64,000 nucleotides of DNA from Whitmania pigra (taxonomy: Eukaryota > Annelida > Clitellata > Hirudinida > Haemopidae). Location: positions 2,379,501 through 2,443,500 of the forward strand of contig JAJTWR010000251.1 in NCBI GenBank assembly GCA_021613335.1. Direction: 5' to 3'. Both the position numbers and the translations under genes were made by a program. Every line of letters begins with the position of its first letter. Positions within the stretch are counted from its first letter, which is position 1. The notes below the pieces were generated by a model. That model searched no databases. It saw only the letters and a program-made list of their open reading frames with translations, and was not told the origin of the DNA. Below, piece by piece: positions 3,093 to 60,830 of this stretch.

Positions 3093-10999
<7,907 letters not shown>

Positions 11000-12178: not shown

Positions 12179-15100
12179 ATGGTTAAGCTTGCACCATTAG
12201 TCACCGGAATTTCTCCGAAAGAGGGCCCACCTGGTACGAGAGTTACCCTACGAGGAGAAAACTTGGGCAATGATTCGAGAGATCTTACAGGTTTGACGTT
12301 GTTTATAATTTTAAGTCTTGAATTTCAAGACTTTAGTTTAATGAAAAATTCATGTCTGTATTATCATAAGATATGAACATTTGAAATGAGGAAGCAGGTC
12401 TTTGCATTATACACTGTTACTGCTGAGTTATTGAGCTTAAACCGATGTTGTATTAAGGATTTTTCAGACTTAATTATTGAAAAGTATTTGTTACAAAGGT
12501 CTGACGATATGTGGTGTGGACTGCCTGTTGTCTGCAGTGTGGAAATCTCCAAAACAAATCATAGTAAGAACAGGTCAGATCAGAAAACGTGATTTTGAAA
12601 GTTACAACAAAAACTGATTTGTATGTATTCTATATCTATCTACAGTCTAACAGTTCTAATTTGTTTTAGCCATAATTTGTGACCCCTAATTTTATTGAAA
12701 GTAAAATAAGTAAATGTATTAGTGAAACTAGTAATGTTGACACAGATATAAAATAATACCATTATTAAGTGGTATAATTAAGTCTCTTTTTTTGAAGTTA
12801 CAGAAATGCAAAAATAACTTTATTTTAGAGGATTTGAAGTATGTTGATGAACTTACATCACATTAAAGATATCATTTGTGAATCAGTTTCTATTTGTATC
12901 TTTATTTGGCTAATCATTTGATATTTAACGTGAAGCTCATTTTGGATTTTTGGTGAACATGCCACGTAATAATGTCGTATAGTAAAGTCATTTATGTTCA
13001 GGTCAAGCCAAAGGCAAGGGCGACATTGTCGTCACTACTCGATCAGGGGGACAGGGAACTAGCACTGTGCAATTCAGAGGCTTCCAGATTCAAATAGGTC
13101 AATTCTTGTTTATTCTGTATGTGAATTAACTCTTCGAGTGTTAAGTTATTTAGTTTTTTCTTTATTTACACCTGTTAAATGCTTATCATAAACTGTCATC
13201 ATTCAAGTGATGCTGTGTTCTGGACCACTGTGCTATTGTATTTGACCACTTTAAATAATTGCTGTGTCATGTCATGTTCATCATCATCTGAACTGTGTCT
13301 ATTCCAATATTCAGGTCCACTCCAGGAGTCAGCCATATGGGTGGATGAGACACAGCTTTACAGTGCCATGGAGAACCGGGGCAAGTCTAACCCTGTGGAT
13401 CTTGAGTATTTGGATGACCCTCTTGGCATCTGCGACGAGTCGAACGAGTTGGTTTACATTTTTCTTTCATCCACTCGTTCACTCAACCACTTATTCAATC
13501 ACTATCTCATCAAACAACTCATATTCATTCATCCATCTTGCCACCAACCCATGAACTCACTCACTCACTCACTCACTCACTCACTCACTCACTCACTCAC
13601 TCACTCACTCACTCACTCACTCACTCACTCATCACTCACTCACTCACTCACTCACTCACTCACTCACTCATCACTCACTCACTCACTCACTCACTCACTC
13701 ACTCACTCACTCACTCACTCACTCACTCACTCACACTCACTCACTCACTCACTCACTCACTCACTCACTCACTCACTCACTCACTCACTCACTCACTCAC
13801 TCACTCACTCACTCACTCACTCACTCACTCACTCACTCACTCACTCACTCACTCACTCACTCACTCACTCACTCACTCACTCCCTCACTCACTCACTCAC
13901 TCACTCACTCACTTCTTGTTCCATACTTCCAGCAAGAAACCAACAGAGGAGGAATTACAAGACCTTCTCCAAGAAGGTTCAGACAAAACTGATGGGTCAT
14001 TCATTAGTAGCAGTCAGAAAAGTAACGCTTGCTTGCTTGCTTACTCTTCTTCATTTTTTGTGCCTTTATTGGTTGTCATGGCAACAATCTGTTTGCCCAA
14101 AGACCCATTGTTTAGGCTCTAAGCGCTAGACTTTAGGGTGCTGAGATTGGTCTCATTGGCATTTTTCTGGTCGACAAGGGACATTGGAATGGAACTCATT
14201 AATGTTATTATTGTTAATGTTACTGTTGGTAATATTGTTGTTAGTAATATATTATGTAATTATTTAGAATATTATTGTTATTGCTAAAATTATTACTGTT
14301 AAAAGGAAATATGTTGTGGTTGGTGAGTTTTCATCATAGGCTTTTGTTTATTGTCCATTGCCAAGGTTGTTATTTTAATATTATTGTTCACTTAAATTAT
14401 TATTAAGGTAATGTTATTGTACAAATGCATGAGGGATCATTATAATTTTATTATAAATCAGGAATATAACATATCCTTCAATACAGTACTTTAGATTTAA
14501 GTAATTGATTTTTTGAACCAGAAGAGATGATTCGTTAAGTTTGTTTACCTAAATCTCATTAGACGGGGCTCTTTTGGAACTGTGTCTTTGATGGGCTTGG
14601 TGATTTCACCACAAGTACTTAAGTAGCTCATGCTTAATCTGTTTTCATGGCCTTATGGTCAAATCTTATTGGTTCTCAGACATTTTCATGACTAATTAAT
14701 TAGGTAATTGGTGAATTAACAACAATTATCTAAAGGTGGAGGTTATTTTGATTTGTACTTAAATTCACTTTCAATGCTTGCTTGGGTCGTCTGTGCCATG
14801 TCATGAAACTGTCTACAGCTTGCAGTAATTTCCTGCTCTGAGCTTTTTCAAGAATACTATTGCTATCAAATAATGTTTACATTAATAGTTTATAGCCTCA
14901 ATATTATAATAACAATGCATTGAAATTAATATAATGAATATCAATGATAATTATAATAATTTATTCACCAAGGATCCGGTAACACGAACCAGGAAAACTT
15001 TGACCCTGCTTGGTTCCTGCTTGAGAACCACCAGAAGACAAGGTGATGATGATAATGATTTAAAATATATAAATGTAAAATATTTATATGATGATAATAC

Positions 15101-28577: not shown

Positions 28578-29456
28578 ATGAAGTTTTTGATCCTCCTCGC
28601 AGTGATTTTGTGCCATGCTTCGGGAAAGTTATTTACACCCGAAGAAGAACAGGCTCTTCTTGACATTCACAATCAACTCAGGAGACAAGAAGGTGCTAGT
28701 AACATGCTAGAAATGGTATGTGATATTTTACTTGTCATCAAAATATGAAAAAGATTAAGGTAAACAAATTGAAATTAAGAAAGTCTACTTTTGGTACGAC
28801 AGAAATGGGATCCAACTCTGGCTTTGCAAGCGAGCGCTTGGTCTGACCAATGCGTCTGGGAACACGGAAAACCGAAGAATATAACAACCAGGTTCGGTTA
28901 CGTCGGCCAGAATCTGTTCATGACCACCTCCAAAAAATTAAACTCAACTGGTGGAATCAGCGTCTTCTACAAGGAAAAGGACAACTATAACTACGATACC
29001 ATGGCTTGCGATAAAGTCTGCGGCCATTACACTCAGGTTAAAACACTGACATTTAATAACTTTTAACTTTTTGACATTTAGTCTAACTAAAACAGAAAAT
29101 GATACAATTTCGAACAATAGGTTGTCTGGGCCAAATCGGAATATCTCGGTTGCGCTGCAACATATTGTCCTGAACTCTATTTCCCAAAAAGTAACAGCAC
29201 CAGATCGGGAAGTTATTTGGTGTGCCATTACGGCCCAGGGTGAGACAAACTATTCATATAATGTGTTCTACCATTTGTGTTCGGTTGTAATCCATCAATT
29301 ACTGAAGATTAATGACGTGCGTGATTTCGCAAAAAAACTTCTTGTAATTTCGACAGTGGAAATATGGCAAGGAATCGTCCGTTCAAACAAGGACCTGCCT
29401 GTTCAGAATGCCCAGAAGGATATGAATGCAGGGACAGCTTGTGCTACAAACCATGA
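28578..29456 (+). CDS. Secreted CAP-domain protein 1 (CRISP/SCP/TAPS family)
   Basis: Small secreted CAP-superfamily protein of unknown ligand. Exons 28578-28715, 28803-29036, 29121-29239 and 29357-29456 give 196 codons. Residues 1-17 form a signal peptide (MKFLILLAVILCHASG). The CAP fold shows LLDIHNQLRR, CGHYTQVVWAKSEYLGC and VCHYGPGGN, with GQN at the position usually GEN, so one proposed tetrad acidic residue is Gln. A short Cys-rich tail (CSECPEGYECRD, ending LCYKP) follows. The same four-exon structure is found in the three minus-strand CAP genes 25 kb away. A strong TATA box lies upstream; AATAAA at 29488-29493. Confidence 0.92.
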
Positions 29457-29797: not shown

Positions 29798-32085
29798 ATG
29801 AGTTTCAAGCGTTCCGTGAATTTTTTGCATTGCATACGAAATTGCTTAAAGGCAAATCGGTCCTATTCTTCGAGTGGAAAAGGTGATGAACCATCAAATG
29901 GCTGTTTCTGAAGCTTTGAGTTATTTTAAATTTAATCCTAATGCTAAAGATATAATTTTACGATATGGTCTTGAACATAAAGTAAAGGTTTTTTAAAGCT
30001 AAGCAAGAAAATAAATGCTTGTTATTGTCCATCAGACATCAAGAGGTTTTATAAAGATGTCACATTGACTAAAAACAATGGTGAGAGACAAATATAATAT
30101 TTTAAAGTTTTACGAAACCTTTTTTTGAATATTTGTTTTTATTATTACTCTTACAAATTGATGATGGGATGTATTATTTGACACAAACCAGTATTTAAGA
30201 ATGTATGTAAAATAATGTGTGTCAACGATATCTAATAATGGCAACTGTTAGAAATAATACTATAGTACAATTCTTAACCATATCCTCCATAAATTGCCAT
30301 TGTTAACATAAAATTGTAAACCATTTGTTCTATTATTGCTTAACAAATTGCAATAATAAGATTAATATCGATTTATAAATCACGATCCTCACCATTCCAT
30401 GACAGGCACGTTCGAAATCAACCTTGACAGGCATAAACTCCGAACACCACTGGGAAATGTTGTTCAAATTCCAAGCGAACCGATCGCACTCGGTGTGGCA
30501 GAAGAGTGGAGGTCGCAGGACAAAGTCATAAACAGATTCAATATGCAGCTCGTTAGTGATGATGATGATTATTGTTTTTGTTATAATAATGATGGCGATG
30601 TTTTATCAATTTCGTTTAAAAACATATGTGTTTATGTTTTCTTATGCCTGATGATCTATAAATAACCCCTACCTTCAAGACGACCCTGACCAACATGTGC
30701 ATCGACAGGGGGGAGTTGAGAGACCAGGAGACTACGATCAATAAGATGCTCGAGTTTCTCAACACTGACACAGTCTGGTTAGTCATTTGGTTCCGTGTTC
30801 AAAACCCACCGCATTTCTGCCATTGGATCATTTGTCTGAAATGTGAGGCTAAGCGGCTGTTAATTAATTACTTGATCAGCATGATTTATGTTAATAGAAG
30901 GGGAGTGGGATTTACTTGATGTATTAATTATTCATGAAAGGTTTCAAAAAGTTTCAGAGCAGACAACCCACAGGAACTCATTCAGCTTCAGAAAGAGCAA
31001 TGGGATCCTCTCTTGGATTGGATGGAGAAGAGGCCAGTAGAATGATGATAATGATCAATAAATATTAAATAACTTAATTAGTTTATATATTTAAATAATA
31101 TTATTATTACATGACATAATGCATGTTTGATCAACTTTTTTTGAAAATTATCTGTCATAGAATTTTGGTGCTTGGCAGTCTAATAATTAAGAATACAAAA
31201 TATTATGTTTAAGATATAAGTACTCCTTTAGTTTTAAGTTCTGTTTGTCAATGATGGCAGGTTTGAAGTAAAGATTCCAATCACGTACGGCTTATCGGTG
31301 CCACACTTTCCCTCGGAGACGAGAGACAAGTTGATCACATACCTTAAGTCCTTCTCTGGTTGGGCGCTCGTGGGTGAGTTGATTTAGAGCTAGGTTGTGA
31401 TGATTTTTATGATGTGCATTTGTGCCTTTCAAAATGCATTGCTATTGCCAGAGTTGGTACCTTTCAAAATTTGATGTTGACATATATTTATTAGTAGAAT
31501 TATTGAATATTGCTACAATGGTAGCAATCATTATTATGCAGATTGTGCAAATGTATATGTATTTTTATTTCACATGGCACCTTAAATATTAACTTTTATT
31601 ATTGTGCAGGCTACGAGCAGGCCGTGGAGTGCCTCAAGTCCTTTGTCATTGGCACATCAGTTGTCAACAGAAAAGTTTCGGTGGAGGAGGCTGTACGACT
31701 CTCCTGTCTTGAGCTTGACTTTCAGGTTTAGAATGGATTCTATTTGATTGAAACCATAAATAGATTTTGGCTTAAGTATAAGATTTTTCATTAGGATTAT
31801 ATATTTTTTGAATTCCCTATGATTTGTTTTTACTATTATATGCTGTGTAAAGTTATTATATCTTAGTTAAAGATTGTTTGATTGCTTACATTATTTATTA
31901 TATTATTCTGTTGCTCAAATAAAAAATATCAATTCCAGACAAATGTTTGGGGAACAGTTGAATGGAAGCACACAATCGATGAAGTCGAGATGAAAGCACG
32001 TCTTGCTGCTGCCATGTTGTTCGTCCATTTCAACTCTACTCATTACAATATCACGGAGAAGGAAGATAATTATCGTGTCAAATGA
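29798..32085 (+). CDS. ATPAF2: ATPAF2 (ATP12), F1-ATPase assembly factor 2
   Basis: Mitochondrial matrix chaperone that binds free F1 alpha subunits during ATP-synthase assembly. Eight exons: 29798-29882, 30036-30080, 30406-30551, 30680-30777, 30952-31032, 31261-31373, 31610-31725, 31939-32085, giving 276 codons (vertebrate protein about 289). The N-terminus is basic and Ser/Asn-rich, fitting a targeting sequence. Family landmarks: KRFYKDVTL, FEINLDRHKLRTP, IPSEPIALGVAEEW, LQKEQWDPLLDWMEKR, YGLSVPHFPSE, VEEAVRLSCLE, WGTVEWKHTID. The intron after 31032 must use a GC donor (AG|GCCAGT); the GT three bases on gives a stop in the next exon. AATAAA at 32409-32414. Confidence 0.95.
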
Positions 32086-32690: not shown

Positions 32691-35600
32691 ATGGAGGAAA
32701 TTCAGAAGCCACAAAACATGATTAAAATAGTATGGTCACATTATGTTTTTTATTTAACGCCCTTTTCACAAATGCAATGGCTTTATTGGAAATGGGGAAA
32801 TGAGTATTGATTGTTGAGTTTAACAATTGTATTTCTAGGGTGTGACCATTACGGAGAGCGACGTTTTTGAGACTGATGATCTACCTGAAGATGACCAGCA
32901 ATTGGTTTCAGATTACATTTCTGTAGGTTTACATGTTTTAATTTGTTGGAACTAAGATATTTTCTTAAAATCCACCATATTTTATGATTCAATTAACTTC
33001 AATTTTTTTAATTTTATTTTTATGATAATCTCCTATAAAGCTTTCTAAATGTCATGTATTTGTTCGAGCAGTCGTCACTTGCAAAGGAGACCCATAGGAG
33101 CGACTGCATAGACTCATCAAGACTTGATGCCACTGAGGCATTCAAGGCTTTTGCAGACAAGTCTTTGGACTCCAAATGCGTTGGTGAGCTTTAAACGTTT
33201 GTTGGTGTGTTCATATTGACATTTACTGATGCAGTCAAATGTTTTGTGTCTGTAATTTGTTCATCAAAACACAAGAAGGCATCATAAAATTGATTTAAAA
33301 ACTTTACTAATTGGCTGCAATTCCCACAAAACAATACATTTTTTCCACAGACTTCTCGGACAGCATTGCCATTGCCAGAGTTGGTTATCCAATGACTAAG
33401 GTTGGTTCTTGATATTGATATTATTGTTCTTCACTTGCTGAGATTTTATAATCATTTTATCTTTGGCATTCAGAGGATCTGTTAAATAAAATTTTTTATT
33501 ATTATTTGTTGTGAAGACTGACAGAGTCAAAAAAGAGACTTTGGAGGAGAGGTACAATCGACTGGAGAAGGCAGTCAAGGATCTTGCACAGGAGATTGAC
33601 ATCGTCAAGGTGACGAGCTGTTTACAAATTTATCTCTGGGTACTAGTTCTCATACGCACAGACACAATGCTTGCTACTACCACATGAGATGTCTATATAA
33701 TCACATGGATGACTGAACGTGTTGTCACTCATCATCAACACCCTGTTATTCATTCATGCAGGCCAATGAGGGTGACAAAGGTGATGGAGACAAAGTGTTA
33801 TTATCAGCAACCTCGATGATGCAGAAACTCAACTTCCTTCAGAGGGAATTGTCGAGTGTCGGGGTGAAGGAAGAGCTCATTGAAAATGATCCACAGAGGT
33901 TCTATCACAGGTGGCAAAATCATTTTTGTTGGCATTATCATCATAGCTATTCTATTTATTAACCATCAATATAATTGTGGTTATTCTATTTTGTAATCAT
34001 CATTATCATTATTCTACTTCAAAACTATCATTATCATTATTCTACTTCAAAACCATCATTATCATCATTGTCACCCTTTTCTAATCATCTAATTGTTCAT
34101 GTGATCATCCTCACCAATGTCATTGAAATCCTGTTAATGTCTGCCACTCATTACATCAGCTAGGATTCTTAAACTGCACAGTGAATAAATGCATTCTTGA
34201 ATTTCATCAATTAATAATCATTATCACCAGGAAGCTGTTGAATGACCTCGACCTTTTCATATCCTCGTCATCATCATCAGCACCAACTGCAATGTCGCCA
34301 GCTGCAGATGGTGATGTCATCAGATATCAGATGCTTTGCTCTCCTGGAGAAACCTTGCATGCTGATGATGCTATTGTGGGTTATATTTTGATGTGATGAT
34401 GATAATGATGTTAAAGATGGTAGTAAGTCACTGACTAATTAACAGATGAATTGATTGCAGATTGAAGACCTCGAACAGAGAATAGAAAGGTGCGAGAACA
34501 TCATCGGATTGGAGGCTGACAAATCAGTGAGCTCTTTAACCAATCAATTAATTTACCAACTGACTAGTTAACTGCTTAATTATTAAATGGTTAATAAATT
34601 CATGGATTTATTAAATATTGGTAATTATTAAATGGTAATTCACTAATTTAAAGTTTAAAATGTTGCTTATTCAGGGATCTCTCTCTGGTGAAACTCCAAA
34701 CAAGACACTCATGGTTTGTAGCTGCTGAATGTTCTGTTTTTGACCTTAGTAAAGCAATTTAAAATCAAATAAGATTGCAACGTGTCTGAATTTTTTTAGT
34801 TATTTAATATATTGCTAATATTACATCGCTTTATGTTAATATGTATTATTCATTAAACAAACCTTATTATATACACGAAGCTGTTAAATAATTAATTAAC
34901 AGGGGGCTCTTTCAATGGTTGTTGCCAAGTTTGCACTGCTCGACCTCACACAGTTGACCCACTTTGAGAGCAGCTTATTGGCCATCCAGCAGAAGCAAAT
35001 AGCAGCCTCTACCAAAAGCGAAGCCAGCGACATTGCCGACAAGGTCGACAGGGTACAAAGAGAATCTTGTCATTTTGATATTTTTTATTTATGATAATTA
35101 TTTAAATGTTATTATTTGTAATTTTGATTGTTATAATTATCATTATAAAATGTTGATTTGAAGTGAGCATTTGATAAGTGACATCCTACTATTGTTTTGA
35201 ATCAAGCAATCTAGTTAACTGAATCAATATCAACGTCATAAAAATATCGTATCCTTAGTTTGAAAACGTTCCCCAGGTGGCAGGCTTATATGAGCTCCTC
35301 AAAAAGTGGGACTCTATGGCCAACGCCATACCTCATATTTTGGACAGGCTGAACGTAATGAAAGCCTGGCACTTGCAAGGTTTAAGTCTCCTGTGCCTAG
35401 ATGCAATTTGTTGTGCATGCAAATACCTGTATGTGTTCTGCTCCTGCATGTAGCTGTTCTTTGCATGCTAGACACTTCCAGTGCCCTTGATATCTTAGCA
35501 ACCTCATATTATGTGAACAGCTTTTGTTGGTTGCGCTAAAAATTTGTTACCTGACTGTGAACACTTCAAATGCATTTTGAATATTTCCATTGGCTGAGTT

Positions 35601-36720
35601 AGTTTTATTTGGTAACAACAGCCTTTCCAGGATTGTAGGGTTTCTTGTTATATTAATTAGCCATTTGTTCTCAAGTACCTGAATGTGAATGTTTTGCTTT
35701 CATTTGTGATTGGTTGCATCAGATCTCCTCCGTTTATGAGGCTGTCAAGAAAGCCAATCCAACAATGGAGAAGCTGGTTGGTGTTTCTGAGAGGTTGAAG
35801 ACTTTGTTAGAAGACCACCAATCAGGTTTATAAGAGATTTGATAAGCCATTAGGTGCACTGAAGCAACTCCAATTTATTGTATTTCTTTAGTGTAGTCTA
35901 AGTCTTATTTTTATTAGAATAACTGCAGTGAGGATGTGAAAAACACTACTAATCAATTTTGTTTAGTTTTGATTCTATTGTTAATCATTAGCATCTAGTG
36001 ACTTTTGACATTTTGGTTAAGTCTGGTAGAATTTATAGAAAAACCGAGCTAATTGATTGATGTCATTTCCCGGCAGTTACTTCATACTGAATCAAAAGTT
36101 ATTATAGTTACTTTTAGTGTTGTCATAGTTACCAATGCATGGCTTGATGCATGCATGTTTCTAGTCATATTGTTGCATGTTACTTGTGACCTTTGCCAAT
36201 AGTCTCCAGATTTGAAGCAGTTTTGTTGTTGCATGGTCACAATAAAGAATCACTGTATTATCATTATTGTATCTGCTCATCGCAATCAACTTTATTCATT
36301 TGATTCATTACTGCGACAGCTGCTCAGTTTAGCCTCACCTTGGCCCACGTGGATTCTTCTCAGAAGCGGATGATTGACACCTTGTCCACTCACACCGAGC
36401 ACCTCAAACAGGTATGCAATCGCCCAATCAATCCCAGATCAATGCAAATTAAATGACGACATTTTGAGAAGCACTTCTCAATATTTTCATTTAATTATTT
36501 AAAACTGCACTTTTCTGGGCACACCTGGCATTTGTTCAGAAAATCTTGCTAAATTACCTATTATGACTACCAGTAGATTTTATAAAACATTGTCAAACAA
36601 CTCCATACCAGCTGTGGTTGCTAACTAATTACATAATGACTTCAGATCCAAGCTCTATTGGGGCCTCAAATGGGACTCTTCGAGGCAAACTGCAAAGCTC
36701 TGGAGGAACTAGCATCCTAA
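32691..36720 (+). CDS. DCTN2: DCTN2 (dynamitin/p50), dynactin subunit 2, with mutually exclusive exons
   Basis: Coiled-coil subunit of the dynactin shoulder, which connects the p150 arm to the Arp1 filament and supports dynein-driven transport. Exons: 32691-32729, 32839-32922, 33072-33183, 33351-33400, 33517-33609, 33762-33910, 34231-34375, 34461-34526, 34675-34713, 34903-35052, then either 35277-35379 or 35723-35825, then 36320-36411 and 36646-36720. With one alternative the protein is 398 residues, matching about 401 in vertebrates. Landmarks: VFETDDLPEDDQ at the N-terminus, then long heptad-like helices (VKKETLEERYNRLEKAV, KLNFLQRELSSVGVKEEL), and AAQFSLTLAHVD near the end. Exon 34231-34375 contains a Ser run encoded by a TCA/TCG stretch. 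AATAAA at 36999-37004. Convergent with ST13. Confidence 0.95.
35277..35379 (+). other. DCTN2: DCTN2 mutually exclusive exon, version a
   Basis: 103 bp, enters phase 0 and leaves phase 1. Encodes 34 residues starting VAGLYELLKKWDSM, closer to the vertebrate dynamitin segment (LYETIQRW) than version b. Splices directly to 36320, giving HLQAAQFSL, which matches the family. Confidence 0.88.
35415..35467 (+). promoter_or_regulatory. Three TGCATG hexamers between the exclusive exons
   Basis: TGCATG at 35414-35419, 35445-35450 and 35462-35467, within 90 bases downstream of exon version a. UGCAUG is the RBFOX recognition element. Confidence 0.65.
35723..35825 (+). other. DCTN2: DCTN2 mutually exclusive exon, version b
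   Basis: 103 bp, same entry and exit phases as version a. Encodes 34 residues starting ISSVYEAVKKANPTM, alignable without gaps to version a (shared Y-E at positions 5-6, K-K at 9-10, R-L near 24-25). Joining a to b reads D-L-L-R-L then stop, so both cannot be used together. Confidence 0.85.
36136..36235 (+). promoter_or_regulatory. Five TGCATG hexamers downstream of exclusive exon b
   Basis: TGCATG at 36136-36141, 36148-36153, 36152-36157 (overlapping), 36174-36179 and 36230-36235, about 310-410 bases after exon b and before exon 36320. Typical spacing for RBFOX-responsive downstream elements. Confidence 0.65.
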
Positions 36721-37485
36721 AACTGTTAAAAAGCGAACACTGACGATGAGCCTCGCCAGCCAGTGTCGCCAACATCATACCATGCTCATCATATTTTCCT
36801 CTTATTTCAATATTATTCCCCCTTTTTTGCTGGTTCCTGATAGGCAATTCCCAGATGCCAATCCCCAACTTATTTGATACATTGGTTTCAGGTGATGGTG
36901 GTGGTTTGGTGAACACATATTTAGCCATTTATGCTGTTTAGAAGCTTTTTAAATGTGCTTTAAAAATCGATCTGCACATGATTTTGAGTCATTGGCAGAA
37001 TAAAAGTTTCTCTCCGACTTGGCTTTCCTTCTACTTACGAAAATGTCGTGAGAGCACCTTAATTTCCAGGCTACTACAAACTGAAATCTTGGAATAACAA
37101 AAACAAATGCAGGGAGGAAAATCAAAACTTCAAAAACGAAACATGACAGGCCCCCAAAATAGCAGGGGCACTCAACAAATCATTAGTTTACCAACATTGC
37201 CAGTTAGGATTCAATATGTTAACAGCTCCAAAAAGCAATGGATGGCCTGATATCTACCAACATCTGAGATAACGTAACTGTTAATAGCAATTTGCTCGAC
37301 TGTTATTTTGATTTTAGCTAGCAAAGGTGTTGGTCGTGATGGATTAGCGATCATTGCAGTGCTTTAACCAGAAAACGAAGGAAACTGAAAACATGAACAA
37401 AAAACGCAGCGTGAACTTCCATCTTATTTATTAGGAAAAGATCAACTTCTCGGCCGTGAGTGTGCCGACACCTTCCGCATCCTTC
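36721..37485. other. DCTN2-ST13 convergent intergenic region
   Basis: About 760 bp of 3' flanks. DCTN2 AATAAA at 36999-37004 and an ST13 signal (TTTATT on plus, AATAAA on minus) at 37427-37432. No gene supported; the 36629-36928 minus frame is antisense to UTR. Confidence 0.65.
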
Positions 37486-40400
37486 TCAGTCGATGTCAGG
37501 CTGAGGGGGAGCAGTGGGCTGAGTGGAGGACCTCCCGGACTCGGGGACACTGGAACCTGCATCGAACGCTCCACTTATGTCTGGACCTCCCTTGAAATTC
37601 TTGGCCATCCTCTCAAGTATCTTCTGAAACTTTGCATTGCTCTGGTACTTGGATATGTTAGCAGGGTTGGAAGCTATGTCCTCCATGGCTGTGGCTAATT
37701 CTGGGTCCTGTATGAATCCGATAAATATATATTAAACACCATGACAAGCATACTGATGATGTAATCGTCATTGACGTAATTTTAACAAGGGTGTCTCCTT
37801 ATTTCATTGTCACAAGCATAATTATGAGGCTGGAATGACTAAATGTTACATAACAAAAGCACTCATTAATGCATTCAAATGATATGCAATACCTCGTGTC
37901 TCACTCAGACATATCAGCATGAAGCTTATTTAATTTCACTCATAGATATTCAATGCAGGGGCTGTTTAATTTTGCTCATGAATATTTAATGAAGGTTACC
38001 TTGAAAGCTTCGAGAAGCTCAGGGTCACTCAGAAGACCTGCCATTCCAGGCATGTTGTTGAACATGTTGCCTAGAAATAGCAATAATAATAAATAATAAT
38101 ATTACAAAATTGGATTACTTCAGAACGTAGCATTAACCAATCCGTCAACCATGAAATAATCATCATAATTTAAGCTCACCAAAATGGAATGACTCTCCAG
38201 TGCCTGGAGTATCCTCCTCCTATAAATAGAAAAATATGCTTGTAAGTAATAAAGGTCATGAATAATTAATAGGTGATGGTACATGAATAACAAATGAAGA
38301 AATGTGAATAATGAATGTGGGACCAACCATCCTCATCCTCTCATTCTCCATCTTTGCCTTCCTGATTCTCTCCTTCCTCTGCCTGAGCTCTTTTTCTTCC
38401 TTCTTTCGTTCTTGCTTCCTCTTGTGCTCCAGGACTCTCTTGGCCTGTGGGGAACATGCAACAAATTATGCTAGGTTTGATTTTGATTAATTATGACATA
38501 TGCAATTATTTAATGCATCACAAAGTATCTAATCTCTCTTATCCATGTTGCACTATGCTAATTAGTTTGCTTGAATCTAAATTGATTTATCTGGACGTAT
38601 TGGCAGTCCAAAGAAGTATTAATCAAACTAACCAATCGGAAGTGCCCATGAACAAGTTAATACCGGTCTCACCTTAGGCTCAACCTCTCGCCTCGCCTCA
38701 TTGGTATCGTCATCGTAGTCCAATTGGCACGACTTGCTCAGATCCTTGTAGGCATTCTCCCACTGACCGAGAAGTCTGCGTTAACGAACAATCAACAAGA
38801 TTACCACCAAAACAAAAATTGATTGAATTTCTTTGCAAATTAAATAAATTATTCTGAGTAAGTTCATCAAAAATTAATTCTCAAAAACACTTCAGAATGA
38901 AGTGCGACGAACATCCCAAGAAATTAGAAACAAGTCCTAAGCATGAAAAGGTGCTCATTTCCATCACATCACTGACCTGTAGGCTTTTCCTCTCCACTTG
39001 TAAGGCTGTGCTGAGTCTGGATTCAATTCCAGAGCCTTATTGCAGTCCCTGATTGCTGCATTTGGTCTCTGGAGCTTGATGAAGATGCTGGAGAAATAAA
39101 TATAAATAAATAAATAAAGTATAAAAAGGTATTGCATGCTCCAAATAAAACATTTCACAAATAAATAGTGCCTCCCAGCATTTCCATTCCTGGCAAAGCT
39201 ATTCATTAAGGATTAATAAAAAATACCATGAACATAATGCCACAAACAGTATAGTAAAACATTCCAAAAGATTCATCAATTAAACAGCTTACCTGGCTCT
39301 CTTGGCGTAGAGGTTGGCTGAGGTCGGGTTCAATTTGATGGCGTCAGTGTAGTGCTGGATAGCCATTTCAAAGTTTCCTAACAAGCAGAAGATTTAATCC
39401 ATACACTCAGCACCACATAGAATACATGCATACACAAACATAACAGAGTATCACTGAACTGATTATAAAACATCCATTCCAAATTTCAAAGACCAACCTT
39501 CAGAAACTGCAGCCATAGCTTCATCTCTCCTGGCGGACGACTGCTCCATCATGTCATCGGTGACCTGATCAGTGTTAATTACCATATTATAATGAGTCAC
39601 ATCAAATCCACTAACAAGACCTAATAAGTGCAATATTAATAGGCAGCTGACACAAAACAATTATAATGACATAGATCACGAGCTACAGATCCCCCAATAA
39701 CTCATAATAATTGCATGGCAAAAGAATCGTAACCAATCAGCAATTACCATCTGGCTAACCTCTATAGTCTCATCACCCATTGGCTGAGCGACATCTGGGT
39801 CAGGTTCGATGACACCATCATTCTCAATGTCTGTTTAATGAAGTAGGTAGTTTGACTCATTACATGAAACCATGCAGAACCATATGAAGAAATGTGAGGC
39901 AGTTACTTGTATTGTAAAAAATGACCAGTAATACAACTATTAATATGATATCTCGATGCATTTGTACACTAAGTCACAATTTTAGCACTAAAATTAAGAT
40001 AATTAATAATATTAACTAGAATAAAAAATTATTAACAAAGAATTAAAAAATTGAAATTTGCTTGTAGTATAGCACAAGCTGCACAGTACAAACAGCCCTC
40101 AGCACAAACTGCACTTAAATCACTTGAACAGCCCACACAAAATAATGTGGTGCATATTCATTCAGGTTATGAATGCCAACCTAATTCACTTTCTGGACTA
40201 TCTTCAACTTCTGGCTCTTCTGGCTGAGGCTAAAAAAAGTGTTTGCAAATGAGTCATTTTCATAATTAAAATCAAGCTGTAATTGCAAGGATATCCCACC
40301 AATATCAAAAGAAAATTCTCTAACGACCCACTAGTCAAATACATTTCTAAAATTATCAATAAACAGTCTTATGTGCTCATTTCACCGATGTGAGAGGCCA

Positions 40401-40799
40401 TGAATATTAAAATGTGGTATTAGCACATTGTGGATGACAAACACTTACTGGGGGCTGCCAGGACTGACCCCGATCGTGACACGGTCCACCACTTCCACAA
40501 GTTCCCTGGCCGCACTTTTGCCCAAAGTCTTTACGACAAGGAGGAATCTTTGCTCCAAGTCTGACAAAGACATAAACGAAATAACATTTAAATTTACTCT
40601 GATTATGAAATTACTTACAAAATTAAGTACAAAAAATGGATTTGAGTGAATAATTCCTAGACTTCAACTAAATAAATTTTTAATCTTACTCCTCGAGCCA
40701 TTTCCTGTAAAAGTCAAGCTCCGGCATATGAAGAATGTCCGAGTTTGACTGGCACATCTTCACAAAGCCCTCAAGCAAGCGAATATCTGATGGATTCAT
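37486..40799 (-). CDS. ST13: ST13/Hip, Hsc70-interacting protein
   Basis: Cytosolic Hsp70 co-chaperone that stabilises the ADP-bound state. Minus-strand exons: 40799-40690, 40560-40449, 40229-40181, 39830-39760, 39564-39498, 39377-39293, 39087-38977, 38775-38673, 38444-38328, 38219-38180, 38070-38000, 37707-37486; 385 codons (vertebrate about 369). Order: N-terminal dimerisation helix ([12 protein letters not shown]), acidic linker ([15 protein letters not shown]), three TPRs (about residues 130-245: [36 protein letters not shown]), basic helix ([13 protein letters not shown]), and a C-terminal STI1/DP domain ([23 protein letters not shown]). GGMP repeats typical of mammals are missing. Exon 40560-40449 adds a Cys-rich segment. 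An acceptor CAG ends two bases before ATG. Confidence 0.95.
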
Positions 40800-42530
40800 T
40801 TCTGAAACAGTAAATTCATTAAATATTCAAATTTTGCAGCAAAATCAATAATTATTAGAAATTCAATAAAGGGCTTGTGCTAATTACAACACATGATAAA
40901 TCTGAAACCAAGGGCCCATAGGTTCTGAATTTGCACATTAACATCTTGCACATAAATCGTTCAGGCAAAAACGTGTTCAGAGTAAATAAGACAAAACGTA
41001 ATGACCTAGTGATTTGAAAGCAGTTCACCTAGTGATGAAAGTTACTTCATAATTACATGAATTCAGACAAAAGCATAGAAAACCAGTACAGTACAAATAA
41101 AATAAAAAGCCCCTCGACAAAATCAAACAGCTTGCAACTTCTGTATCGCGAAAAATGCGAATGCAGAATTCGCTAAGAAACCGATCTTCGACATCATGCC
41201 AGACAAAAAAAAGCGTCGCAATGCAAATATCTAAATTTCACCTGCAATTCGTTCAGCTTTAATCCCAAAAATCTTCGATACTTGGAAGCCCTACTTTGCC
41301 CCGAATAAAGCCTCTATACCAATTACTATGTCAGGCCGAAGACCGATGTCCAAACTAGAAAATTCTCTTGCGCAAAAGCAGAAGGGTTGTGTATTTCCGT
41401 TAGGTGGAGTTTGATTGTAAGATTAGTATAATTTAATGACCAATTTATTATAAACATATCTAAAATTAATTTGAAATTTGTGTATTGATTCGTAATAAAG
41501 TTAGGTTACTATTGTGAGATTAATAAAAAGTGATGTTTATTCGTAAAACTCTTGTTTTACTTGATATTCATGAATCAAATGTTTTTTGTAAAGCAAAGGT
41601 CGAGCTAATTATCTTAAAGCAATTTTACAAATAGTCGCTCTTTACGTTTTAATAAAACCACTCTCGACTATTAGACTATATAACAATAAATAAATAATGC
41701 GTTATTGTTAATTTACTAATATATTTTATTGCATTATTGTATGAGTTCTTAAGCAACTTAAGGATAAAATAAAAGTTTGTAATTATCAAAGCTTTGCCAT
41801 ATATAAATTTCTAGATAAAGTTCAAATTATAGTATTTAAATGTTTAACGTTCAGATTATTGTTTATAAATTTTATTTAAAATTGTCAATACCAAGCGAAC
41901 CAATGTTTATTGTATTGTTTAATAAAGGAAACTCAATTAAATAGGCGCTTACATGGTGCTAATAAAAAAATTATGTTAAATTATGTTTGAAAATTTCGTT
42001 TATAACGTCCTCAACATTATTATATCAGTGTTACTTCACATGAATTAGATTACACTTTGCAACGGGTACTGAATTTTCAACAATTTTTATTTAAAAAATT
42101 ACTATTGCAATAATTACAACCCAGGTTGATTTTAAATTTAATTTCGTGCTAAAATTTTACAATTTTGTTTACCGTAGCCTGTTACTTCGCGCCAAGAGGT
42201 GACCTATTACCGCACTTAACGGCTATCTCCATTCTCATTGGTTAGCCCTCTGCCTGTCGTGTTGTGGGCTTTTTAGCATCGGCGATAGTACCCTTTAAAG
42301 TCTATTGTTTTGTCCGTTAAATGGCGGATCTTTAGTGGAGAAAGACCATAGTTAGAGATCGGATACATTTTGTGAATCGTCGCTTCTTAATAAGTAGTCG
42401 GATCGGCCGTGATTCTACGAGAAAAGCGAATTGTGACAGATTGCATTTTATCATCTATACGAATTTTTCTTCGTTCGTATCCTGAAGTACGAATCTACAT
42501 CGTGTTTAGGAAAGCGTCAAAGATAGTAAG
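40800..42530. other. Divergent promoter region between ST13 and the pocket-protein gene
   Basis: About 1.7 kb, very AT-rich in the middle (41400-42160). Near 42170-42330 it becomes GC-richer and holds an E2F-like site and an inverted CCAAT box. No gene seen. Confidence 0.65.
42185..42196. promoter_or_regulatory. E2F-like site upstream of the pocket-protein gene
   Basis: CTTCGCGCCAAG; its reverse complement CTTGGCGCGAAG contains TTGGCGCGAA, one base from the classical TTTGGCGCGAA E2F element. It is about 335 bp before the start codon at 42531. An inverted CCAAT box (ATTGG) lies at 42237-42241. Confidence 0.6.
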
Positions 42531-45500: not shown

Positions 45501-48500
45501 TTTTATTTCAAAACAAATTGCAGGGTCATCTATGACCTCTTACGCAATTATATACAATGGTTTTAGATGTTCGCGAGAACAGAGTGCAACGGTAAGAGGT
45601 TAAGTGATCACTTAATTAGGAGGTAATTATTGAGGTTAAAGAGCGACAGGCAGGATTTGAAGCGAGAAAATGTTGAGGAATAATGATGTCAGGGGGTAGA
45701 GAGTTCCAGGGTTTGACGACTCGGTTGATAAAGAAGTGTTGCCTGTGTTTGGTGGAACATTGTTCTTGTCGTAGACGAAGGAGATGACCGCGAGTTCTTG
45801 AAGTAAGAAACGAAGGGAATTCCGGAATTGTGCACTGAACAAGCCCGTGAACTATTTTATAGCAGAAGCATAGGTCGCTGATAAGCCGTCTATGTTCAAG
45901 AGTATTGAGTCTCAGCAGTCGTAATCTGGTATGGTAGGGCAGAGATCTAATATTGATTAGTATTCACTTCAATGTAATAATCAGCCTTAATATTTTCTTA
46001 ATGAAATCTTGTAGTTAAAGGTAGAATACTTGTATTGAAGACATCATAAAATGGTTAATGCAGGGCATTTTGAAATGGGTTTTGAGCTTCTTCAGCACAA
46101 ACCAACCTTTTTAATATGAATATTATTTTATATTAATAAATTCAAAATATAATAATAATTAATAATTTAATATGATAAGTTTTACTGCTTGATCTTCAAG
46201 CAACATTAGGCCAGAAGTTAACTGCAAATAGCACATCATATTTCATTCATTGACACTTTAGTTTCTGCGATCAGCTGGCACGTTCCCATTGGCATCTATT
46301 AATAGTGATTGACATTCCTGATTGATATTCTTATGTGATTGACAGGTAACTATCCACTGATCAGTGACAACCTGGTAAACTCCTACCACCTCCTCTTGTG
46401 TTGCATAGATTGGATCTTCGCCAACATCCTGCTCAGCAACAGACGAGAGCTGCTCAACTCGGAGTTTGCAGGTAAGTCCAGCATTGATTATGCTAATGTA
46501 CCGTGATGCTGGCCTGTGCCAATGCATTATGCAGATTCGTATCTTATGTAGATTATGATGATGAGATGCTGATTAATTTTTGGATATGCACACAGGTTGT
46601 TAAATTTGACTAATTAAGATCCAGGGTTCATAGTGATGAGTGGATATTTCAAATAATGGATCGATTAGAATCATTCAATCAACCATGAACTTGTCAATGA
46701 CATTGAAATAACTGCTTTGTCACTTTGTAATGCAAACAACAACCATTCTGTCTCTAGTATACCATTTCCAGTATTATTGTTATCATTATAACCAATGCCC
46801 CTCATTAATCCATTCTTCCATCTGCCCTTCATTACCTTAACCTTTAACTTTACAAGGTCTTCCAAGCAACTTCAGGTCAAGGGACTACAGGCCCCCGTCT
46901 GAACCCCCCTGCATAATCAACATCCTCTGCGACAAGCATGAAGGACTGCCCAAAGAGGCGAAATGCATCAAGGAGCACTATTGGAAGCCATACATCAAGA
47001 AACACTTTGAGAAAAAGGTATGGGAAATACCAGTAGTACATCATCATAATCTAAGTTGTCCCCTTACATATTTATATTATCATAATTATCTGTTAAAAAT
47101 TCAACTTTGAAAATTAAGTTTCCCCAACAGCATCTAATTGGCAACATGGACAGCCTTTCAAAGGTTCTGGATGTAGAACATTTTGACAAGAACTGGTTGG
47201 TCTCCATTAGATAAAAATTGTTAATGTTATTAATTAACATATTAATTGCCATTGCATTATGTGCTAATATGTTCAAATAATATGACATTTACAATACAAT
47301 AGTGTTATTTACATTCAATGAAGCTCAAAGTCATAGTAATAATATTAATAACACTAATCTTAACCAAAATGCGTTGCCGACAGCAAGTCTCTGAACAACA
47401 TGTACGAGGAGTACGTGCTGAACATCGGGGATTTTGATGAGAGGATCTTCTTGGGCGAGGACTCGGTGACCGAACTGGGCACTCCGGCAGCCTCCATGAG
47501 CCACCAGAACATTGACAACCTCACCGAGAAGATTAGGTCAAAGAAAGCTCTCTTCGAAGATATGATGGAGGTTGATAATACAAATGAAAATAAAAATTCT
47601 TCTGGGTAATAAATGTATTGTTATAGTAATATTATAATTTTATGTCTACCAGCCCTGCCCACTGCGCCAAGCCACGCCCCTGACAAATCGTCGCTACCTG
47701 GTGGCCAAAGAGGGCATATTCTCCCCTGTATCCACAGCAACTCAGAGTGTCAGCAGGCTCCACAAGATGCTGTCAGGGAGGAAGGCAGGTCCAAGCGAGG
47801 AGTTGATAAAGATGTTTAGGTGATAATTTCATAGTTATTATTAGGGCATTAAAGAAAATGTTAAATAATTGCCAATAAATATTAATAATGAAACACAAAT
47901 ATTCATAATTATTTATAAAGAAGTTGTAAATCACAATCAATTAGTAAAATTTAAACACAACTTTATCAATTCCATTTTCTCATCCCAACTTAAGCAACTG
48001 TCCCAAGAACCCTTCTGCCGCTGTCCAGAAGAGAATATCAGAGATGGGGAAAGCTTTCTGCGAGAAGTATTCTCAGGTCTGTCGATCAATGGATTGATGA
48101 TGCTAATTCGTCATTCATCAATGCTCGTTGTATGACCAACAATTCTTCTTTCTATTTCCAGTCTTCTGAAATCCCAGAAGAAAATGGTGAAAAAGAGGGG
48201 AATTCCAACTTTGCCAAGCGCATACTCCAGTTGGCAGAGAGTTTGTACTACTTGACCCTGGAGAACATCATAATCAGTGAACTCCGCAACCCCGTCATAC
48301 CTGTCGATTCTAGGATCTCTGTGGCTGCTGTGAGTGTTTTGGGATGTTGTTGTCATTATCATCGACATTATTGCTATTATTATTTCTTAGCAGAAATTGT
48401 TTTGTGACAATAATTGCTATGCTAAATATGAATAAGTTGTAATTTTGATGATTAACATACATTTAGGCAATATTTTAATGAAATTAACTTTTAACCAGTA

Positions 48501-51500: not shown

Positions 51501-52924
51501 TAATAGTGATTATGATATTTTAAGTTAAAGTAAATCTTTTTTTGAATAAGTACTTATTAAGTATCATCTTCATACTGCAATCTTTTCCTTTTGGCTTAAC
51601 AGGTGTACAGGAGCGTGCTATTGGAAAGCCATGCCAATGAGCCCACCAATCAGGCTGCGGCTTCCCGGCCCAACCAGTCGTACGCAGCCACATCTGCAAG
51701 AGACGAGCGCAGGCTTAGGAGGGAGAGGGAAGCAGAAGCAAATGTCCGTTCGAACTTGGTCCCTCAGACCAGTTCCCCGACCAGGGCAGCTGGGGCGAGC
51801 CTGTCGTTTGCCTCAGAAGATAGGGGGGACCTTGTCAAGTTCTATAATGCGGTGGGTGGCCGAGGATGGCTTTGTTCACCAGAATGATGGTGATAATGTT
51901 GATGATGGTAGTGATGATAATGTTGATGTATGTTTGAAATTGCTCCTAATTTATTGCACTATATGTCCAGATGATGTAGCTTCTATGTGATTTGCATTAT
52001 TATTATTGTTGTTATTGTTTTTGTTGTTCCTGCTGTAGTTATAATTATAAGTTATTATTTATTGGTCTTTGATAACTATTAATTTATTTTGTTCAAACCA
52101 GATATTCCTAAAGGTCATAAAATCCTTTGCTTTCAAGTTCCATCCTGAGGGCGATGGGGACAAGGTAGGCGCATATGTTATATGTTATATGTTACTTTGT
52201 GCACATAAAATGAATATTATAATATAATATATATGTAATATAATGACGAGTAATGGTTTGTCTTAAAACAAGCAGTGCTTATATATTTAATATTTATTAG
52301 GACAACATCCCTGTCATTCTCTCCCCTTTGCCAGCCATTCGAGGACAGCCTCTAAGCCCGAGAAGGGTGACACCAAACATCTATGTGTCACCAATAAACA
52401 GTCCAAGGGGTGGAGCTATTGCAAAGGGAAACAACTCGACCACGCCCCTGAGCACAAATTCGAGTCGTCTCCTGTACTGCTTCAACAAGAGCCCGTCCAG
52501 GGTTTGTAAATCTGTTTTGTGATTGGTTACTTTGCTGGATGGTTATATATACAGTGTGTATATGTGTTTGAGCTCTGCATATTCTTTTGGATTAGCATAA
52601 ATTATCATCATTGCATCTCTTCCTGAAATGGTAGAAATGGCTAATCCTAAGAAAATTGTCAGCATTGAAATATTTTTGATTGGTTCATGGTGCATTTGAT
52701 ATGTTTATCGCCAGCAGGATCTGCAAGCTATCAACAGCATGATAAGAAGCAGCTGTACAGCCAATGGAATTCCTACAACCGAGGGCAATGGAACAAACAA
52801 CTCGACCCGACTAAACATTGCCAATGACCAACAGTCAGCCGACCAATCAGGAGACACAAGAGCTTTTAGGAGAAGGCTTCATCAGGTCGTGACTGAGAGG
52901 CATGCAGCCAATGGCAATGCTTGA
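42531..52924 (+). CDS. Pocket protein of the p107/p130 type (RBL1/RBL2-like)
   Basis: Retinoblastoma-family repressor that binds E2F-DP and chromatin regulators to hold cell-cycle genes off. 23 exons: 42531-42671, 43817-43953, 44434-44670, 45203-45267, 46346-46471, 46857-47017, 47131-47195, 47384-47570, 47653-47819, 47995-48076, 48162-48329, 48574-48656, 48809-48929, 49148-49243, 49519-49696, 50001-50152, 50481-50597, 50853-51029, 51284-51355, 51603-51851, 52102-52164, 52301-52501, 52718-52924; 1,083 codons. N-domain: HWLACSLYVSCRK, LERNFAVSTVIF, GDFDERIFLG; pocket A about 430-612 (FPWIVEVLE, KGLSRDVVKHLN); Asn/Ser-rich spacer; pocket B about 722-1010 (RLRDLC, IWTCIEH, DRHLDQIIMCCIYAICR, YRSVLLE). 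GNCVSLTR and the long spacer favour p107/p130 over Rb1; p107 versus p130 not resolved. Last exon has a NAGNAG acceptor (CAGCAG). Confidence 0.95.
45483..45960 (-). pseudogene. 5'-truncated LINE with reverse-transcriptase C-terminus and (AAAAT)n tail
   Basis: In the pocket-protein intron between 45267 and 46346, antisense to the gene. Minus strand from about 45960 reads LRLLRLNTLEHRRLISDLCF, then TSRTRGH, then RVVKPWNSLPPDI, the hallmark end of LINE reverse-transcriptase ORFs (CR1/L2/Jockey-like). A one-base shift is then needed to reach FKSCLSLFNLNNY and the stop. The tail on the minus strand is (AAAAT)n (45481-45510 on plus). 5'-truncated and frameshifted. Confidence 0.85.
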
Positions 52925-54376: not shown

Positions 54377-55289
54377 TTATGGCTTGTGGCAGAGACCATC
54401 GTTGCAACTGTATCCTTTAGGACATTCAGAACACTCCTTTCCTTTGTTGTAAGGCTTCTTACCGAGATAATTTCCACTGTTTTGAAGCATGAGGTTTATG
54501 TGATTGTAATTTGAATTGAAATTTTGAAATGTTCTCACCCTGGACCATAGTTGCACACCATAATGGTTCCTCTCAGCCTCTTTGTGGCACAACGTGCTGA
54601 AGCACAGCCGAGGTATTCCGAGTCAGCCCACACAACCTGCCCAATAGTAATTCAATCAATTATTTGTCAGCTATCATATAGGATTGTCACAAGATTATGT
54701 AATTTCCATACATGTTTATAGCAAATTTTTTTTGAAAATAAGATTTAGCAAGGTCAATTAAGAAAACACATAAGTTTGACACTTGACTACGATGAAATAA
54801 CCTGAGTATAGTGGCCGCATACTTTACGGCAGGCCATGCTGTCAATGTTATAGTGAGCCTTTTCGTCGAACCAAGTCTGTACAGCTTTCGTGGCGTCTAA
54901 CTCACCGGTGGTCATATACAAGTTTTGTCCCACTACTCTGAAATTGGGTTTTATACCTTTTGGCTGTCCGTGCCTAAAAACGCATTGGTCTGCCCATGCG
55001 CTCGCTGCTTGTGCCAAAATAGGATCCCATTTCTAATAACAAAAAGAATATGTGAGAATATGAACTCACTTTGAAAAGCATTTGCAAAGTGTTTGGGCTG
55101 CAATCTAAAATAAGTTGTACGTAGGATCGAGTACAGAACGACAATTACCATTTGCTTCATATTGCTGGCACCCTCTCCTCTCCTGAGCTTGTTGTGATGA
55201 TCAAGAACTGCATTTTCTACATCAGAAGTCCACAACTTCCCTGATGCGTGACACAAAAGCATAGACAAAAAGAAAAACGTCTTTGTCAT
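54377..55289 (-). CDS. Secreted CAP-domain protein 2
   Basis: Member of the local CAP family. Exons 55289-55149, 55032-54802, 54636-54539 and 54476-54377 give 189 codons. A signal peptide (MTKTFFFLSMLLCHASG) is followed by VLDHHNKLRRGEG, GQNLY, CGHYTQVVWADSEYLGC, a shortened third-exon loop (about seven residues fewer than genes 1, 3 and 4), VCNYGPG and a Cys-rich tail CSECPKGYSC ending LCHKP. It is the most diverged of the minus-strand trio. A TATA-GCCG motif lies about 120-134 bp upstream. Confidence 0.92.
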
Positions 55290-55407
55290 ATTGACGCTCT
55301 GTGGGTTCTTAAGAACTTTATTTAAAAGTAATTAAAGAATTAATGCAATAAAAAAGATAGGGCGCTGTCTGACCTCGCTACGGTCAGCTTGCATTATCAC
55401 ATTTTCA

Positions 55408-57946: not shown

Positions 57947-58787
57947 TCAGGGCTTGTAGCACAAGTTATCCCTGCAAATGTATCCGGTCTCGCATTCGGA
58001 ACATGCACGTCCAACTTTGAAAGGCTTGGCACCGCGATAATTTCCACTGCAATAATAGTGTACGAATGAATATTTCACAATTAACATATCGCTACAAATC
58101 TCAAATGATTGAAATGTCCATCTTACCCTGGACCGTAGTTGCAAACCATAAAGGTTCCACTGACTTTTCCTTCTTCCTTCTTTCCGGAGCAGACGGCTGC
58201 AGCGCAACCAACGAATTCTGAAGCTGCCCAGACAACCTGGCAGATAGAATGTTTAGTTTTTATTATTACTGTCGATTTATAAACGTCTGCCAGATCAACG
58301 AAAAATTAATTAATTATACCTGAGTGTAATGTTCGCAAACTGCCTTTTCTCTGCATTTGGTTTCAGCGTAGTTATAATCCTTCTTTTCGTTAAAGAAACT
58401 TTGGATTCCAGTGACAGCATCGACTGACTTGGAGCTGCTCCAGAACATGTTTTGGCCGACGTATCCGTAGTTGGTCTTGACATCAGTCGGATGTCCGTGT
58501 TTGAAGACGCAGCCGTCAGCCCACATGCTTGCAGTCTGAGCCAAACTTGGATCCCATTTCTGTCGATGAAAATTTCGGTTTAGTTTCATTATCTCATATT
58601 TAAAAAACAAGATATTTTCAGAAAGGAAAAGCAAATGTTCAGTTACCATTTCCTTCATGTTACTTGAACCCTCTCCTCTTCTAAGCTTGTTGTGATGATC
58701 AAGAACTCGGTGTTCATTTTCTGGAGACAACAACGTTCCAGACGCGAAGCACAAAGTCGCAGTAATGAGGATCAAGGTCTTCATCAT
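57947..58787 (-). CDS. Secreted CAP-domain protein 3 (tandem duplicate)
   Basis: Exons 58787-58647, 58559-58320, 58236-58127 and 58046-57947 give 196 codons with a signal peptide (MMKTLILITATLCFASG). CAP landmarks: VLDHHNKLRRGEG, YVGQNMFW, VVWAASEFVGC, FMVCNYGPG, tail CSECETGYICRDNLCYKP. It differs from the neighbour at 59990-60830 at about 14 of 196 residues, and introns and 3' flank also match, so this is a recent tandem duplication. One difference is in the core motif: CEHYTQ here, CGHYTQ in all three relatives. No TATA-GCCG motif is visible upstream; similarity to gene 4 stops about 15-20 bp before the ATG. Confidence 0.93.
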
Positions 58788-59012
58788 CTCGATGTTCTGA
58801 AGGTTCAGAGATGTGTTTGAAATTGCTGCGTCGCAACTTGTACACGTTGGCTAGGCGGTAACTTTCGTTCCGTTGTTTTCGTTTTAAATTCCCTAAGATA
58901 CAGGTGTTCTTGTATCTCGATTAAGTATTCGATAAAGGTAGTATGAATTATTCATCTTTTTCTTCGACTTAAGAAAAACAATTTAATCGTTTTCTTCAAA
59001 TCGATTTGCTCT

Positions 59013-59989: not shown

Positions 59990-60830
59990 TCAGGGCTTGT
60001 AGCACAAATCATCCCTGCAAATGTATCCGGTCTCGCATTCGGAACAAGCAGGTCCAACTTTGAAAGGCTTGGCACCGCGATAATTTCCACTGCAATAATA
60101 GTGTACGAATTATTATTTCACAATTAACATATCGCAACAAATCTCATGTGATTGAAATGCCCGTCTTACCCTGGACCGTAGTTGCAAACCATAAAGGTTC
60201 CACTGACTTTTCCTTCTTCTTTCTTTCCGGAGCAGACGGTTGCAGCGCAACCAACGTAGTCTGAAGTTGCCCAGACAACCTGCCAGATAGAATGTTTACT
60301 TTTTAATATTACAGTCAATTTATAAACGTCTGCCAGATCAACGAAAATTTAATTAATTATACCTGAGTGTAATGTCCGCAAACTGCCTTTTCTCTGCATT
60401 TGGTTTCAGTGTAGTTATAATCCTTCTTTTCGTCAAAGAACATTTGGATTCCAACGACGGCATCGACTGACTTCGAGCTGCTCCAGAACATGTTTTGGCC
60501 GACGTATCCGTAGTTGGTCTTGACATCAGTTGGATGTCCGTGTTTGAAGACGCAGCCGTCAGCCCACATGCTTGCAGTCTGAGCCAAAGTTGGATCCCAT
60601 TTCTGTCGATGAACATTTCGGTTTAGTTTCAATATATCATATTAATAAAACAAGATATTTTCAGAAAGGAAAAGTAAATGTTCAGTTACCATTTCCTTCA
60701 TGTTACTTGAACCCTCTCCTCTCCTAAGCTTGTTGTGATGATCAAGAACTCGGTGTTCATTTTCTGGAGACAACAACGTTCCAGATGCGAGGCACAAAGT
60801 CGCAGCAATGAGGATCAAGGTCTTCATCAT
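59990..60830 (-). CDS. Secreted CAP-domain protein 4 (tandem duplicate)
   Basis: Exons 60830-60690, 60602-60363, 60279-60170 and 60089-59990 give 196 codons. Signal peptide (MMKTLILIAATLCLASG), CAP motifs (VLDHHNKLRRGEG, YVGQNMFW, CGHYTQVVWATSDYVGC, FMVCNYGPG) and the short Cys-rich tail (CSECETGYICRDDLCYKP). An in-frame ATG seven codons upstream (60851) exists, but the start at 60830 is preferred because it matches gene 3 and follows an acceptor-like CAG nine bases upstream. A TATA-GCCG motif lies about 115-125 bp upstream. Confidence 0.93.

Follow-up and report, generated by a model that had tools for sequence, protein, structure and literature searches.

Does the dynamitin gene of Whitmania pigra encode one of its protein segments twice, in two exons of which each message would carry only one? 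The question is raised by two 103-base exons, here called A and B, that follow one another in DCTN2 (dynamitin/p50) within the window, the 64,000-nucleotide stretch of DNA analyzed here. We find that they are two diverged copies, each of which alone gives an intact 398-residue dynamitin, and we think it likely that they are spliced in a mutually exclusive manner under predicted RBFOX control.

The exon pair and its reading frame

The window has a G+C content of 36% and reads as animal-like genomic DNA. DCTN2 lies on the plus strand and runs from its start codon to its stop at 32691..36721. The gene is intact and complete: 14 exons with AG/GT borders were rebuilt, and the spliced model is open over 398 residues. 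The 5' part consists of exons at 32691-32729, 32839-32922, 33072-33183, 33351-33400, and 33517-33609, and the middle part of exons at 33762-33910, 34231-34375, 34461-34526, and 34675-34713. These are followed by the exon directly upstream of the pair (34903..35052), exon A (35277..35379), exon B (35723..35825), the exon directly downstream of the pair, which is entered in phase 1 (36320..36411), and the last exon, which ends at the stop (36646-36721). With either A or B used, a DCTN2 message has 12 introns. The product matches the Pfam family Dynamitin (PF04912) over residues 20-395, with 222.5 bits for isoform A and 198 bits for isoform B, both above the gathering cut-off of 31.8 bits.

Several other genes were recognized in the window. 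An exon of ATP12, a mitochondrial ATP synthase assembly factor, lies upstream of DCTN2 at 30366-30665 (+; Pfam, 49.4 bits), and a gene at 37430-41250 (-), arranged tail to tail with DCTN2, shows by eye a likeness to ST13/HIP. Genes with a CAP domain (cysteine-rich secretory protein) form an array at 28779-29066 (+), 54951-55331 (-), 58314-58850 (-), and 60357-60641 (-); Pfam CAP scores above its cut-off at 28779-29066 and 58314-58850, and the members at 54951-55331 and 60357-60641 were assigned by resemblance. A likely retinoblastoma-family pocket gene at 47994-48407 and 51600-51887 (+) scores just below the Pfam cut-offs (RB_A, 24.9 bits with a cut-off of 25; RB_B, 23.9 bits with a cut-off of 26.9). 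The region 6195-8229 (-), with an fn3 match above cut-off (27.1 bits) and an Ig-like match below cut-off, is probably a cell-surface protein gene. A long simple repeat at 13555-13992 (+) has all three forward frames open (THSLTHSL-like).

The sequence-only reading had described A and B as exons of 103 bp each that are entered in phase 0 and left in phase 1. This is exact for 35277-35379 and 35723-35825, both of which have AG/GT borders. The spliced models with A and with B both come to 398 residues, the length that had been claimed for the product with either exon. When A is joined to B, translation reads DLLRL and then stops, which reproduces the claimed stop after five codons, and a message with neither exon also has a broken reading frame and an early stop. 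A gap-free fit to one segment of vertebrate dynamitin had been proposed as well, and both exons align there without gaps to a solved p50 chain, 9b7j_P, to which isoform A aligns with 124.9 bits and isoform B with 111.6 bits. A and B are adjacent, equal in length and phase, and encode homologous peptides for the same protein segment; both have functional-looking splice sites, and their joint inclusion or joint omission is incompatible with the protein, as is characteristic of mutually exclusive tandem-duplicated exons. The proposal of a diverged duplicated exon thus corresponds to the pair that is found, whose frame permits one copy per message. What the sequence directly shows is that an exon was duplicated, that the phases match, and that an open message contains exactly one copy; judging from this, each DCTN2 message likely uses only A or only B.

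The donor of exon A, AAG/GTTTAA, is weak and matches the consensus at 4 of 9 positions, and that of exon B, CAG/GTTTAT, at 6 of 9. U12-type splicing of the pair was considered and rejected, as GTTTAA and GTTTAT are not U12-like. The length of the intron between A and B (343 bases) and the ordinary GT-AG type of both donors leave no steric obstacle to joining A with B.

Relatedness of the two exons and age of the duplication

Since A and B share no more than 44 of their 103 bases and 7 of their 34 residues, their likeness was tested in three ways. Scored against the corresponding segments of 9b7j_P and thrips dynamitin, A ranked first (127) and B second (77) among 58 open 103-base segments bounded by AG and GT on both strands, and the third scored -9. 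When the window's 34-codon stretches with an open frame (19,593 in all) were scored against the same segments, the two exons again took ranks 1 and 2. The next-best open stretch (score 58) lies at 12149 on the opposite strand, outside DCTN2, and no third copy of the exon was seen in the window. The rank order of A and B was unchanged when P0001, the relative described below, was added to the reference segments. Shuffling the residues of A or B never reached the observed score (0 of 20,000 shuffles in each of eight comparisons). In a reference-free ranking, A/B was number 8 among 19,074 nearby equal-length exon-like pairs in the window; five pairs scored higher and two listed ahead of it tied with it, and all seven come from a single Ser/Arg-rich, low-complexity ORF near 25.7-26.0 kb. 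By codon-use log-odds, A stood at rank 4,544 of 19,593, a weak result that we do not count in its favour, and B at rank 1,070, a modest one.

A protein search with isoform A gave one match, P0001, a protein of 384 residues whose coding sequence runs without interruption on a contig of 1,230 bases. P0001 is probably derived from cDNA, because its coding sequence is uninterrupted, whereas the window gene has introns. Beyond P0001, a profile search, which scored the 7,995 candidates with the most words in common in a collection that yielded few animal dynamitins and one close relative, found two thrips and seven fungal-type proteins (10 matches in all). A search for transcript fragments containing either exon, made with a 115-residue C-terminal alignment, yielded 136 candidates, none of them at E <= 1.

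Overall identity to P0001 is 41-47%. Over the exchanged segment, P0001 scores 58 with B and 32 with A, and the order is the opposite for 9b7j_P (A, 67; B, 44) and for the thrips p50 P0002 (A, 60; B, 33). In a segment tree of six sequences and 35 columns, in which B and P0001 are long branches, these two were joined in 93% of 200 bootstraps (LG+G4). Among the four topologies compared, the one with A and B as sisters had AU p values of 0.006-0.036 under four models and SH p values of 0.0325-0.0517; under WAG+G4, the SH test does not exclude the sister tree. Segment position 19, a nearly invariant column (at least 90%) across ten aligned proteins, holds a proline in exon A, 9b7j_P, thrips, and Aspergillus that is absent from B and P0001. 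The segment of B has a proline at position 13, as does 9b7j_P. Judged by its residues, exon A keeps the ancestral-like form common to mammal, thrips, and Aspergillus dynamitins, and B would represent a derived form. B groups with P0001, whose coding sequence lacks introns, so that expression of a B-type segment elsewhere is probable, and the simplest reading is that the A/B duplication probably predates the split from the species of P0001, with both copies retained. The likeness of B, and not of A, to P0001 is a new observation beyond the sequence-only reading, as are the UGCAUG clusters described in the next section.

The small number of residues common to A and B (7/34) and the weak donor of A (4/9) would suit a gene in which one exon is used and the other is a duplicated copy no longer spliced in, with a residual open frame, but we regard this explanation as unlikely. 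Both exons keep their frame, their splice sites, and dynamitin-specific residues. Moreover, A fits the mammal and thrips proteins and B fits P0001, so both exon lines look constrained; given the identity of 41-47% to P0001, a copy out of use should by now show decay.

We consider it quite unlikely that the pair is alternative without being strictly exclusive, common messages with both A and B then acting as a decay-based off-switch that sets the level of dynamitin. Such a switch would work through the stop that joint use creates five codons past the A junction, and neither a steric nor a U12 barrier to joint use was seen. It also has a human precedent: 20 of 28 human genes (validated pairs, Drosophila comparison) are frame-incompatible, and joining reads occur in 18 of 20 clusters (PMC5740500). 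However, an off-switch does not need exon B to stay dynamitin-like and P0001-like.

UGCAUG clusters and the choice between A and B

For the exclusive use of A or B, the reading that we prefer, the two introns that follow these exons contain candidate regulatory sites. UGCAUG, a predicted RBFOX site, occurs on the plus strand three times in the intron after A, at 35414..35419, 35445..35450, and 35462..35467, and five times in the intron after B, at 36136..36141, twice with overlap in 36148..36157 (starts at 36148 and 36152), at 36174..36179, and at 36230..36235. The three sites after A start at bases 35-83 of their intron (the first at base 35), and the five after B start at bases 311-405 (the first at base 311), with the last one beginning 90 bases upstream of the next exon. 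There is no UGCAUG in the other 11 introns of DCTN2, i.e., the intron before A and ten more.

Of the 2,730 bases of intron in the gene, the two introns that carry all eight UGCAUG motifs account for 837 (p 7.8e-5). Among hexamers present at least three times in the three introns around the pair, TGCATG showed the strongest enrichment, with 8 observed and 0.41 expected (p 1.3e-8, uncorrected); the next hexamer had p 1.7e-4. When the overlapping two were counted as one, the comparison with the rest of the plus strand gave p 5e-8. Other non-overlapping 940-base stretches contain at most two UGCAUG on the plus strand, and the maximum on the minus strand is three. Dinucleotide shuffles of the intron after A reached three UGCAUG in 36 of 2,000 cases, a moderate result, and those of the intron after B reached five in 0 of 2,000. 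The locus thus shows one feature expected of RBFOX-type regulation, a (U)GCAUG cluster beyond chance near alternative exons.

We propose that the choice between A and B is mutually exclusive and under predicted RBFOX control. B would be the default exon and A the RBFOX-dependent form; this assignment is suggested by the better donor of B and by the B-type coding sequence of P0001. In RBFOX-rich cells, e.g., neurons or muscle, RBFOX bound 3' of A and 5' of B would increase the use of A and reduce that of B, a direction that we predict because the layout resembles those of unc-32 7a/7b and FGFR2, discussed below. Messages containing both A and B would be removed by nonsense-mediated decay.

Exclusion could instead be achieved by competing intron-intron RNA pairing between docking and selector sites, as in Dscam, and not by RBFOX. 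A few short complementary stretches exist, for example, 36085-36096 with 36299-36310, but the best duplex energies among the three introns around the pair were reached by 52, 34, and 65 of 100 shuffles, and competing pairings above chance were not found among these introns. We hold this mechanism to be very improbable. The stretches at 36085-36096 and 36299-36310 form 12-base near-complementary arms (92%) in the intron after B, the second lying just 5' of the next exon, and they likely reflect chance.

The exchanged segment and known systems

According to PMC8047447, the C-terminal portions of p50 (helices H4-H8) sit in the long arm of the dynactin shoulder, a three-helix bundle to which two p50 and one p24 contribute and along which part of p150 runs. 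The same paper describes a break of this bundle at the p50 loop 243-260 and two shoulder subdomains that each hold two p50, four per complex. Alignments to 9b7j_P place the exchanged segment at p50 residues around 309-347, depending on chain numbering, so the exchanged 34 residues would belong to the C-terminal helical part of p50, in the long arm of the shoulder. Predicted structures, which were poor overall (mean pLDDT 52.8 and pTM 0.22 for P0001; 55.4 and 0.23 for the thrips p50), have the segment within a long C-terminal helix, at 287-383 in P0001 (block pLDDT 59-67) and at 310-407 in the thrips p50 (block pLDDT 66-72). Because the exchanged residues appear to lie in the helical part of the shoulder arm, the exon switch may tune p50-p50, p50-p24, or p50-p150 packing. 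Complexes of mixed isoforms would be possible, since each dynactin contains four p50.

If the proposal is correct, a cell could assemble dynactin, which partners the dynein motor, with one or the other of two different helix segments. The subunits of dynactin are almost invariable, and adaptors and p150 isoforms are the usual explanation for differences between tissues. The swap of a p50 helix would give the shoulder a second, built-in means of adjustment, and the candidate RBFOX link would tie a core transport machine to the neuron/muscle splicing programme. In its broadest form, the proposal is that of an animal lineage with two versions of the dynactin shoulder, in which an old RBFOX-switched pair swaps an arm helix with or without the conserved proline and the dynactin of neurons or muscle differs from that of other cells; we see this as an even call.

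As a type of system, A/B is a regular mutually exclusive exon pair, and what is new is the gene, which is unexpected, and the apparent age. The sequence-only reading knew of no description of such a pair in DCTN2, and we found none among the matches listed from the open-access literature on dynamitin or dynactin splicing or exon duplication. A 2012 survey of dynactin genes from 478 organisms gives alternative splicing of dynactin2 for vertebrates only, in two tiny exons of the N-terminal region (PMC3583065). These exons, 3 and 4, are like A and B in being alternatively spliced parts of the same gene. Unlike A and B, they encode residues 36-38 and 39-40 near the N terminus, are included independently, and are reported only from vertebrates (PMC3583065).

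The frame logic of A and B has counterparts in human exclusive exons that depend on frame shift and decay, where same-phase homologous neighbours also shift the frame when used jointly (PMC5740500). Dynactin appears in that paper only in the reference list, and DCTN is absent from its main text (PMC5740500).

For the predicted regulation, C. elegans unc-32 resembles DCTN2 in having two adjacent alternative exons, 7a and 7b, with UGCAUG in the intron after the second. Exon 7a is described as having weak splice sites, and RBFOX proteins help to select it in neurons by way of UGCAUG in the intron that follows 7b (PMC3585155). Features that belong to unc-32 only are that it is a V-ATPase a subunit gene and that its first intron contains a CELF-protein site, UUGUUGUGUUGU, which is required as well (PMC3585155). 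DCTN2 differs in carrying UGCAUG in both introns, after A and after B, and RBFOX is its predicted regulator.

Mammalian FGFR2 and nematode egl-15 (exons 5A/5B) differ from DCTN2 in being receptor genes, in using ESRP (FGFR2) or SUP-12 (egl-15) as a partner, and in exchanging no dynactin helix (PMC2880598). Like DCTN2, however, both have UGCAUG in an intron adjoining mutually exclusive exons, and for FGFR2 exons 8 and 9 the paper describes UGCAUG in the intervening intron and repression of the downstream exon by Fox, so that the upstream exon is selected (PMC2880598).
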